From contig NZ_CP134706.1 in assembly GCF_038246755.1 (NCBI RefSeq), forward strand, positions 2,356,001 through 2,420,000: a stretch of 64,000 bases of DNA. Direction: 5' to 3'. The position numbers were made by a program, and so were the translations under genes. The notes under the pieces were generated by a model. It had not been told where the DNA came from and did not search any database. It was given only the letters and a program-made list of their open reading frames with translations. This DNA is from Micromonospora sp. FIMYZ51 (GTDB lineage: Bacteria > Actinomycetota > Actinomycetes > Mycobacteriales > Micromonosporaceae). Shown one piece after another: positions 50,932 to 53,006 of the stretch (position 1 is the stretch's first letter; the number at the start of each line of letters is the position of its first letter).

Positions 50932-53006
50932 CCGCCTCCGAGAGCAACCTGGTCTCGGCGTACGTCAGCGACGCGGAGCGGGACGCGGAGGTAAGCGTCC
51001 GGCCGAAGCGACTTGACGAGTTCATCGCCCAGCACCGGGTCCGCGACCAGCTCGACCTGCTGCTGAAGGGTGCGATGCGGCGCGGCTCGCCACCCGACCA
51101 CATTCTGCTCTCCGGGCCGCCCGGCTTGGGTAAGCCGGTCTCCGTGGATGCCCTGGTGCTGCTGGAGGACGGCACTCGACGGCGTCTCGGTGACATCGTC
51201 GTGGGAGATCGTGTCATCAGCCGGACCGGTGCGGGGGCGACTGTCGCCGCCGTGCACGAGCAGGGCGAGCTGGACTGTGTCCGGATCCGGACGGCCAGCG
51301 GACGGGAGGTGGTGGCCGCCCCGGATCACCCCTTCTGGACGCCGGAGGGGTGGGTCAAGGCAGGTGATCTGACCGACCGGGATTTCGTCGCGAACGTTCT
51401 GACACCGGAACTCGTCGCCGACGGCACCGAGAGCACCGCGGAGTACCGGCTCGCCGGGTACCTCGTCGGCGACGGTTGCACGACCAACCAGGTGACCTTC
51501 ACCGGTGGTGACGATGACGTGCTGGCCGATTTCCGGTCCACCTGCGATCACCTCGGGTACGGCCACACCACCCGGCCGAACAGTGCCCGGAGCTCGCTGA
51601 TCCGCATCTCGGGGCTGCTGCCCTGGCTCTCCGAACACGGTCTGCTCGGCAAGAACGCCTGGTCCAAGCGGGTCCCGGCGTTCGTGTTCCGGGGTGACAC
51701 CTGGCAGGTGTCGGCCTTCCTCGGTGCCTACTTCGCCTGTGACGGCACGGTGAGTCGCCGAGGCAGCGACCGGTACGACGTGGTGGTCGAGTACTACAGC
51801 GTGTCCCGGGAACTTCTCGCCGACGTGCAACACCTGCTGCTCCGGCTGGGCGTGCAGTCGCGCTTGAAGCTCAAGCGGGGCCGCTACCAGGGCAGGCCGC
51901 ACGAGTCGTGGCGGCTCAGCATCACCAGCCAGGACGATGTGGCCAGGTTCGTGCAGCGAGTCACGGTGCTCGGTGAGCGGGGCCGGAGGCTGGCGGAGTG
52001 GGCGCCGCGCCGGGATCGGTTCGAGGAACGGCTGGCGGCTGACCGAGTGGTCTCCGTGGAGCCGGTCGGCCTGCACGAGTGCCGGTGTCTGACAGTCAAC
52101 GGTGACCACACATTCACCGTGAACGACCTGGTCGTGCACAACACCACCCTGGCCAATATCGTCGCCGCCGAGCTGGGCACCGGCATCCGGGTGACAAGTG
52201 GCCCGGCCATCGAACGCTCCGGTGACCTGGCCGCGATCCTGACCAGCCTCGCCGAGGGCGACGTGCTCTTCATCGACGAGATCCACCGGATCGCCCGGCC
52301 GGCGGAGGAGCTGCTCTACAGCGCGATGGAGGACTTCCGGGTCGACGTGGTGGTCGGCAAGGGGCCGGGTGCCACCGCCATCCCGTTGGATGTCGAGCCG
52401 TTCACCCTGGTCGGTGCCACCACCCGCTCCGGCCTGCTGACCGGCCCGATGCGGGACCGCTTCGGGTTCGTCGCCCACCTGGACTTCTACGCCCCCGACG
52501 AGTTGGAGGTGCTGCTGCGCCGCTCGGCGGGCATCCTCGGCGTACCGATCACCGATGAGGGGGCGGCGGAGATCGCCGGCCGGTCCCGGGGCACGCCCCG
52601 GATCGCCAACCGCCTGCTCCGCCGGGTGCGGGACTTCGCCGAGGTACGCGCCGACGGGGTGGTCACCGTGGAGACCGCCCGCGCGGCGCTGACCGTGTAC
52701 GACGTGGACGCGCTCGGGCTCGACCGGCTCGACCGGGCGGTGCTGACCGCGCTTGTCGACTCCTTCCGGGGCGGCCCGGTCGGCCTTTCCACTCTGGCGG
52801 TGGCGGTGGGGGAGCAGCCGGACACGGTGGAGGAGGTCTGCGAGCCATTCCTGGTGCGGGCCGGTCTGCTGGCCCGTACGCCGCGCGGCCGGGTGGCCAT
52901 GGAGGCCGGCTGGCGGCACCTGGGGCGTACGCCGCCGAATGGTACATTTGGCACTGAAGCACCTTCCGCGCCCGATCTCTTCTCGATGGACACCGATGAG
53001 CCGTGA
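50928..53006 (+). CDS. ruvB: Holliday junction helicase RuvB with intein
   Basis: A 692-residue precursor; removing the 336-residue intein leaves a 356-residue RuvB of normal length. The N-extein runs to the Walker A lysine K69 (LLSGPPGLGK) and the C-extein resumes at T406 (TTLANIVAAELG), restoring GPPGLGKTTLAN exactly. Walker B is VLFIDEIHR; sensor 1 and the arginine finger region (MRDRFG) follow, then the winged helix. The motor cannot bind ATP until the intein leaves, so branch migration should depend on splicing. ATG 50928 overlaps the ruvA stop. Confidence 0.96.
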   Translation: MTASESNLVSAYVSDAERDAEVSVRPKRLDEFIAQHRVRDQLDLLLKGAMRRGSPPDHILLSGPPGLGKPVSVDALVLLEDGTRRRLGDIVVGDRVISRTGAGATVAAVHEQGELDCVRIRTASGREVVAAPDHPFWTPEGWVKAGDLTDRDFVANVLTPELVADGTESTAEYRLAGYLVGDGCTTNQVTFTGGDDDVLADFRSTCDHLGYGHTTRPNSARSSLIRISGLLPWLSEHGLLGKNAWSKRVPAFVFRGDTWQVSAFLGAYFACDGTVSRRGSDRYDVVVEYYSVSRELLADVQHLLLRLGVQSRLKLKRGRYQGRPHESWRLSITSQDDVARFVQRVTVLGERGRRLAEWAPRRDRFEERLAADRVVSVEPVGLHECRCLTVNGDHTFTVNDLVVHNTTLANIVAAELGTGIRVTSGPAIERSGDLAAILTSLAEGDVLFIDEIHRIARPAEELLYSAMEDFRVDVVVGKGPGATAIPLDVEPFTLVGATTRSGLLTGPMRDRFGFVAHLDFYAPDELEVLLRRSAGILGVPITDEGAAEIAGRSRGTPRIANRLLRRVRDFAEVRADGVVTVETARAALTVYDVDALGLDRLDRAVLTALVDSFRGGPVGLSTLAVAVGEQPDTVEEVCEPFLVRAGLLARTPRGRVAMEAGWRHLGRTPPNGTFGTEAPSAPDLFSMDTDEP
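51135..52142 (+). other. RuvB intein with LAGLIDADG homing endonuclease
   Basis: 336 residues in frame. Block A is PVSVDALVLLEDG with Pro at position 1 instead of Cys/Ser. Block B is REVVAAPDHPFWTPEGW: the usual T-x-x-H is A62-P-D-H65, with W68 three residues on. The endonuclease has both motifs, LAGYLVGDG (106-114) and FLGAYFACDG (195-204), with both catalytic Asp. Block F is HECRCLTVNGDHTF, putting C318 at the position (F:4) used by class 3 inteins. Block G ends DLVVHN, followed by Thr as +1 nucleophile. Class 3 inteins also have Thr before the penultimate His; here it is Val334. Confidence 0.93.

Follow-up and report, generated by a model that had tools for sequence, protein, structure and literature searches.

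We analysed a window of 64,000 nucleotides from Micromonospora sp. FIMYZ51 (NZ_CP134706.1, positions 2,356,001 to 2,420,000), in which the Walker A motif of RuvB is interrupted by an intein of 336 residues, Pro1 to Asn336 (51135..52142; window coordinates, + strand throughout unless otherwise given). In our preferred reading, held at a probability of about 0.75, this is a bifunctional and mobile LAGLIDADG intein that interrupts the Walker A loop of the sole RuvB found, it would follow the class 3 order of steps on a splicing domain of the pattern here called FCV (Phe at block B:12, Cys at F:4, Val at G:5), and inteins of this kind would have entered ruvB once. A first-pass annotation of the same DNA had described RuvB as a less familiar intein host, which holds in that such inteins are uncommon; the host is nevertheless not unknown, as RuvB is listed in Table 1 of PMC5874633 and RuvB inteins are present in many Micromonosporaceae and some metagenomic sequences. 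The annotation overlooked the proline at residue 1 and the non-standard splicing signature. With RuvB already known as a host, what is notable is the family to which its intein belongs, with Pro1 and a Cys at F:4 and without the WCT triplet (Trp B:12, Cys F:4, Thr G:5). No description of this WCT-less Pro1/CxC family was found in the literature searched, subscription papers and supplements being outside its scope.

The frame 50928-53006 is free of stops and encodes 692 residues. Precursor residues 70-405 (336 residues) part ...HILLSGPPGLGK from TTLANIVAAELG..., and their excision gives GPPGLGKTTLAN; the insertion lies between Lys69 and Thr406, and the excised product reads GPPGLGK/TTLAN without a scar (the slash marks the junction). 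The boundaries, the scarless in-frame removal and the position directly behind the P-loop lysine are thus exactly those first annotated. The inteinless alleles share the codon boundary, the distance between the two halves being 0 in 16/16 readable inteinless same-genus loci. The insert is an intein at the Lys/Thr junction of the RuvB Walker A motif, and chance is excluded.

The family models point in the same direction, with scores of 25.7 bits for intein_Nterm TIGR01445 (cut-off 24.5), 15.3 bits in the whole protein for intein_Cterm TIGR01443, which is 0.3 below its cut-off of 15.6, and 35.3 bits in the whole protein but 37.1 in the intein alone for Pfam Intein_splicing (cut-off 35.8). The HINT fold with blocks A, B, F and G is present in these models and in the predicted structure of the intein alone, which has a mean predicted local distance difference test (pLDDT) score of 96.6 and to which solved inteins align over residues 1-336. 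The LAGLIDADG homing endonuclease domain occupies about residues 98-296 (51426..52022) and scores 76 bits with Pfam LAGLIDADG_3 (cut-off 22.5). Both its motifs, LAGYLVGDG (residues 106-114, 51450..51476) and FLGAYFACDG (residues 195-204, 51717..51746), have acidic ends, as expected of a LAGLIDADG endonuclease.

Residue 1 of the intein is Pro (51135..51137), which is non-nucleophilic and makes the scissile bond a Lys-Pro bond. Class 1 inteins carry Cys, Ser or Thr at this position, and the class 1 acyl shift is therefore impossible here. The other residues of the splicing blocks are His65 at B:10 (51327..51329), Phe67 at B:12 (51333..51335), a CxC pair formed by Cys316 at F:2 (52080..52082) and Cys318 at F:4 (52086..52088), and Val334 (G:5), His335 (G:6) and Asn336 (G:7) at 52134..52142, followed by Thr +1 (52143..52145), which is both the first residue of the C-extein and the Walker A Thr. 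The class 3 signature as given in PMC5222942 is the triplet of Trp at B:12, Cys at F:4 and Thr at G:5, to which Ser or Thr at +1 is added as a further feature. The RuvB intein has the non-nucleophilic residue 1, the Thr +1 and the Cys at F:4, whereas Phe67 and Val334 stand where canonical class 3 inteins have Trp and Thr. Both features of the looser definition in PMC7891396, i.e. no N-terminal Cys and a Cys at F:4, are present. Judged by its residues, the RuvB intein should work like class 3, yet it is no member of that class under the WCT definition.

Relatives were collected by overall similarity to the RuvB intein or to a Mesorhizobium phage terminase intein and were not selected on F:4. 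The protein relatives were the best 120 of 278 matches, 121 with the window's own, of which 17 partial rows and P0002 (empty, its start being cut) were dropped to leave 103; nine partial rows were also dropped from a further set of relatives. From viral contigs 80 of 178 loci were kept and 76 could be parsed. Sixty-six of these were picked for a Cys at F:4 and no Cys or Ser at residue 1, so that these two counts hold by construction while those for B:12 and G:5 do not; the 10 others were set aside, including L207, a viral intein whose signature mixes class 1 and class 3, in that it has Cys1 and also the complete triplet of Trp, Cys and Thr. The resulting 201 rows (108 P1-type, 27 D1-type and 66 viral) are not independent, the viral and protein rows partly overlapping.

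Among the 108 P1-type rows, the window included, residue 1 is Pro in 107 and Thr in one (P0049), B:12 is Phe in 103 (V 3, I 1, M 1), F:2 and F:4 are Cys in all 108, and G:5 is Val in 99 and Cys in 9. The 27 D1-type rows all have Phe at B:12, Cys at F:4 and Val at G:5, with Asp (24) or Pro (3) at residue 1 and Thr (24) or Met (3) at F:2. Residue 1 is thus neither Cys nor Ser in 135/135 P1- and D1-type rows, and of the CxC pair only the F:4 residue is Cys in all of them. Trp at B:12 was found in 0/201 rows and Thr at G:5 in 0/201 rows, which is the FCV pattern. By comparison, 120 WCT-type rows carry the full triplet (W 120, C 120, T 120) with Ala at residue 1 in 119 and Pro in one, and 42 class 1-type rows have mostly Asp at F:4 (39) and Phe at B:12 (38), with Val (21) or Thr (13) at G:5; nine of these 42 do not start with Cys, probably because the model misplaced the start. 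Thr at G:5 is therefore not confined to class 3. The FCV inteins appear to retain the class 3 nucleophile without the rest of the triplet, and a classification by the WCT signature only would misfile a large intein group.

The following mechanism is proposed. Cys318, with His65 assisting, would attack the Lys69 carbonyl at the Lys69-Pro1 bond to give a branched thioester, and the N-extein would then pass to Thr +1. Cyclisation of Asn336 would free the intein, and an O-to-N shift would yield GPPGLGK-TTLAN. This step order would be that of class 3, on a splicing domain with Phe B:12 and Val G:5 as in many class 1 inteins. F:4 is favoured over F:2 as the nucleophile because F:2 varies in relatives. 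The constancy of Pro1 may reflect a strained Lys-Pro bond, which is a guess on our part. The split P-loop should make RuvB function dependent on splicing; a P-loop intein in RadA is reported to disrupt the ATPase function (PMC6195587). Spread of the element would presumably come about through cleavage of inteinless ruvB alleles by the endonuclease.

Several points weigh against this reading. Mutation of Trp B:12 significantly impairs splicing in the class 3 inteins investigated to date (PMC5222942), and this Trp is absent in the RuvB intein. The Cys at F:4 could be structural instead. The rows share ancestry, so the residue pattern stands for one or few evolutionary events and not for 201. Finally, in the model of the precursor the pLDDT falls below 50 at residues 63-68 and 393-404, which adjoin both splice junctions.

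The place of the FCV inteins among the known classes was examined on the splicing domain. Without the five signature columns the mean identity is 27.7% between FCV and class 1, 21.8% between FCV and WCT and 20.0% between class 1 and WCT; the corresponding hhalign scores, computed with the signature columns, are 205, 99 and 64, and keep the same order (215, 99, 70) when the intein L002 is kept in class 1. L002 lies in the same genome (match 1943772-1944737, minus strand) and combines Cys1 with the class 3 residues Trp (DHRW), Cys (YCVTV) and Thr (VTGN), with Gly for His at the penultimate position, which reads as a mixed class 1/class 3 signature; its host protein is presumably TROVE/Ro60-like. 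Judged by these comparisons, the FCV splicing domain is nearest to class 1 and somewhat between class 1 and WCT. In an unrooted tree with L002 (73 rows, 132 columns, quick search; rows of eight loci with doubtful boundaries, or of the window itself, dropped and similar rows thinned), each of the three groups, FCV with both sub-types, class 1 and WCT, is set apart by a single branch (90, 89 and 100, respectively). Without L002 (72 rows), class 1 (97) and WCT (100) are still set apart, while FCV is not and the others join it at different places. The class trees have no outgroup and give no direction between class 1, FCV and WCT, and the sampling is biased, as the class 1 rows are mostly actinobacterial and 118/119 WCT rows of one set have the flank GRPGLGK.

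We tentatively suggest, at slightly less than even odds, that the Pro1/FCV inteins, here found in RuvB, phage terminases and a PilB-type ATPase, are a separate lineage with a class 1-like scaffold, whose F:4 Cys came to initiate splicing in the absence of Trp and Thr. The class 3 mechanism would then have arisen twice, or FCV would be a living intermediate between class 1 and WCT. PMC7664689 reports that grafting the WCT residues into the class 1 intein gp41-1 and removing its Cys1 led mainly to cleavage, and, partly on this ground, considers class 3 unlikely to evolve directly from class 1; either option would contradict that view. FCV is what an evolution from class 1 to class 3 might look like without the W and T, and a natural family of this kind, in hosts that should need splicing, makes the question testable.

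It is also possible, though on the whole unlikely, that the RuvB intein is an ordinary class 3 intein that secondarily lost Trp and Thr, FCV being a derived side branch of WCT that says nothing new on the origin of the mechanism. FCV and class 3 have three features in common, namely the Cys at F:4, a residue 1 that is no nucleophile, and Ser or Thr at +1, and FCV is closer to WCT than class 1 is, in both score and identity. The absence of direction in the unrooted trees, together with the different places at which class 1 and WCT join FCV once L002 is removed, leaves room for such a history.

An improbable route is one like that of class 2, in which Thr +1 would attack the Lys-Pro bond directly and the CxC pair would be structural or regulatory. 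Direct attack is used by class 2 inteins (PMC5222942), and Pro1 and Thr +1 of the RuvB intein are the residues relevant to it. The F:2 Cys, conserved in most rows and not constant, illustrates that a conserved Cys need not be catalytic. The F:4 Cys, in contrast, is constant in the 135 rows not chosen for it and lies exactly at the position of the class 3 nucleophile. The +1 residue is moreover Thr or Ser, which are weaker nucleophiles than Cys. Class 2 inteins usually have Cys at +1.

The hosts of the family were then compared. Among the best 120 of 278 matches, 48 have RuvB domains and 72 do not; of the latter, 42 match a Pfam model of terminases (PF17289 or PF03237), 29 are without a named host domain and the last, P0118, is a PilB/GspE-type ATPase (T2SSE, 331 bits). 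All 103/103 full-length protein rows, drawn from this set and the window, have Lys directly ahead of the intein and Ser or Thr as the first extein residue behind it. In the 76 viral rows, class 1-type included, the junction is K/S or K/T in 65, G/S or S/S in eight and something else in three; the eight are explained partly by a boundary shift and partly by a different site (EQEPG). Six viral-gene FCV inteins (L178-L180, L182, L183, L185) lie at this EQEPG(S) motif and not after a Walker A lysine. Inteins with Cys1 are also found at GK/S or GK/T, in viral genes (L198, L201, L204, L205) and in two bacterial proteins (L109, L110). PMC5050341 describes mycobacteriophage terminases in which an intein separates the Lys from the Thr of the P-loop, and calls this a 'classic' P-loop insertion. 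In the window's own genome, dnaB (L004, match 7003466-7003930, minus strand) carries a WCT class 3 intein of 375 residues with Ala1 at the equivalent Walker A site, GRPGLGK/S. Inteins of three or more splicing types thus occupy the Walker A Lys/Ser or Lys/Thr site, and this genome alone contains two of these types.

A tree built on full-length sequences (92 rows, bootstrap unsettled) separates the 23 RuvB rows from all others by one branch (100/92). Their nearest neighbour is the PilB-type P0118, itself a long branch, and terminase-like rows surround them. Independent entries into RuvB were considered, some RuvB inteins being only 50-58% identical to the window's, and are rejected on present data, as all of these join the Micromonosporaceae ones on one side of the branch. 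The RuvB inteins would thus look like a single entry into ruvB from a family that sits mostly at the same site of terminase-like proteins. The simplest history would be one move from a largely viral FCV pool into ruvB, followed by spread.

The distribution of the intein is patchy. A full-length match is found in 8/101 same-genus genomes, the window's own included, and in the other 93/101 the best match starts at residue 405 or 406 and covers the C-extein only. At E 1e-20 or better, 28/200 family genomes match the intein, 16 of them with RuvB inteins (14 of 336 residues and two of 221); the 14 other loci of the family search (L050-L063) hold inteins of class 1 type, inserted in DnaB at a second site, DLRESG/C. 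Among the named carriers 23/25 loci are RuvB inteins, from Micromonospora, Plantactinospora, Asanoa, Actinoplanes, Paractinoplanes and an unclassified Micromonosporaceae strain. The allele set of the genus was a non-random one, the 30 best-matching of 101 genomes, in which a narrow pattern read 24/30 loci and a wider one 30/30. Placing the intein label on the tree of the 30 exteins takes 7 changes, as against a mean of 7.2 for shuffled labels, and the starred branches alone force 3. Synonymous divergence (dS) is higher in the intein than in the extein in 28/28 pairs of the 8 carriers (medians 0.95 vs 0.32), values to be read with care since a dS of about 1 is nearly saturated and the extein value may be lowered by codon bias; the sister pair L007/L008 is nearly equal (intein 0.24, extein 0.19). 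The scattered label and the excess of intein over extein dS point to repeated and separate acquisition of the ruvB intein from a diverse pool.

In 27 distinct alleles of 336 residues (351 non-independent pairs), the median ratio of nonsynonymous to synonymous divergence (dN/dS) is 0.153 in the endonuclease part vs 0.116 and 0.111 in the two splicing parts, and a strict pattern for both LAGLIDADG motifs is satisfied in 25/27. In L048, L049 and L086, motif 1 is lost and the intein has shrunk to 221 residues, yet Pro1, the block B His, CxC and HN/T are kept; L049 and L086 are the same protein. These natural near-mini-inteins (L048, L086) have no cysteines beyond the F:2/F:4 pair, and they look like the decay phase of a homing cycle. 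Pro1, HN and the +1 Thr are kept in all 47 of the 48 loci that the search pattern, which itself requires the N and the T, matched, forms with a decayed endonuclease included. For intein users, the family offers candidates for cleavage at a Lys-Pro bond with ligation to Ser or Thr, the natural 221-residue forms among them.

A further reading is a redox switch, in which oxidation would lock Cys318 with Cys316 or Cys48 and hold RuvB as an inactive precursor until stress ends. The idea comes from Cys48 of the window intein (51276..51278), which aligns with a position that is Cys in 120/120 WCT class 3 rows, and from the class 3 DnaB intein of M. smegmatis, in which oxidation joins Cys48 to the catalytic Cys118 by a disulfide and splicing is inhibited (PMC6195587); the correspondence of the window Cys48 with Cys48 of M. 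smegmatis DnaBi1 rests on the alignment made here. In 29 distinct ruvB inteins, however, this position is Cys in only 5, Ser in 21 and Thr in 3, and in the 30 loci the presence of the intein is not tied to any lineage of hosts, a pattern more in keeping with a selfish element than with a switch serving the host. We regard such regulation as quite improbable.

The interrupted gene is clearly ruvB. The exteins score 414.8 bits with the curated NCBIfam model TIGR00635 (cut-off 299.05), and the gene order at the locus is ruvC, ruvA, ruvB, yajC, secD. The precursor gene (50928..53006, 692 residues plus stop) is composed, besides the intein, of an N-extein of 69 residues ending in the Walker A GPPGLGK (50928..51134) and a C-extein with the remaining P-loop domain, the lid and the winged helix (52143..53006). 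It is preceded by the open frames of ruvC (49658..50332, TIGR00228) and ruvA (50263..50931, TIGR00084) and followed by yajC (53125..53484, TIGR00739). An inteinless second ruvB, which the first-pass annotation had named as one of two observations that would speak against it, was not found in the 7.05-Mb assembly, where the precursor search gave one place spanning residues 1-692. The three remaining matches are other inteins or HINT domains, namely L002, the dnaB intein L004 and L003 (match 6529810-6530106, minus strand), which on reading its sequence looks like an RHS-repeat protein with a HINT-like domain near the C-terminus. The RuvB_N model PF05496 gave nine places in the genome, two of them ruvB itself and none another convincing RuvB. 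The next best (L127, 48.2 bits) is an AAA ATPase in a frame of 505 residues, which we take to resemble RarA, and the other six score at most 27.2 bits.

The median extein dN/dS in the genus is 0.071 in carriers (8 alleles, 28 pairs) vs 0.067 in inteinless strains (22 alleles, 231 pairs), and mature RuvB is presumably made in the carriers because the constraint is similar with and without the intein, an indirect line of evidence. That the insertion is dead, the intein no longer splicing and the cell living without RuvB, is very unlikely given this similar purifying selection and the retention of Pro1, HN and the +1 Thr even beside a decayed endonuclease, although ruv genes are not always essential. 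Thirteen NCBI-sourced RuvB entries start inside the intein (P0002, P0004, P0005, P0014, P0020, P0024, P0026, P0027, P0031, P0032, P0035, P0091, P0104). At the loci L071, L073, L074, L077 and L079, which fit the strains of five of these entries, the DNA carries the whole frame of GPPGLGK, 336 residues and TTL, and the public ruvB gene calls therefore look truncated.

Compared with known systems, the RuvB intein shares with the WCT class 3 inteins (MchDnaB1, Msm DnaBi1 and the DnaB intein of its own genome, whose protein matches MchDnaB1 6rix with E 3.7e-37) the lack of an N-terminal nucleophile, the F:4 Cys, the Ser or Thr at +1 and the HINT fold, and with the DnaB intein of its own genome also the Walker A GK/S or GK/T site. 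It differs from them by Phe and Val for Trp B:12 and Thr G:5, by Pro1 where 119/120 WCT rows have Ala1, and by the extra F:2 Cys, and the FCV splicing domains have about 22% identity to WCT class 3, lower than to class 1. According to PMC6195587, Cys118 of class 3 occupies the location of Asp422 in another intein. The class 1 LAGLIDADG inteins (TliVMA 7qsu, the ET08 portal intein, the second-site DnaB inteins) combine Cys1 with Asp at F:4, whereas the RuvB intein combines Pro1 with Cys at F:4. The intein bearing Asp422 is, we assume, that of RecA. The phiCbK-like terminase intein of Caulobacter phages (L089) has Pro1, CRC in block F, VVHN/S and a K/S site after PPGHAK, but sits in TerL and is about 34% identical; its Pro1 was noted in 2012 (PMC3556154). 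PMC7891396 counts 1701 class 3 inteins by the rule of no N-terminal Cys and a Cys at F:4, with a deviant W in 6.1% and a deviant T in 4.6%, and the FCV inteins may be included there without being set apart. The AceL NrdHF split intein of the same paper is like the RuvB intein in its deviant triplet (MCT) and unlike it in keeping Thr at G:5 and in being naturally split, and for that intein the class 3 mechanism is confirmed.

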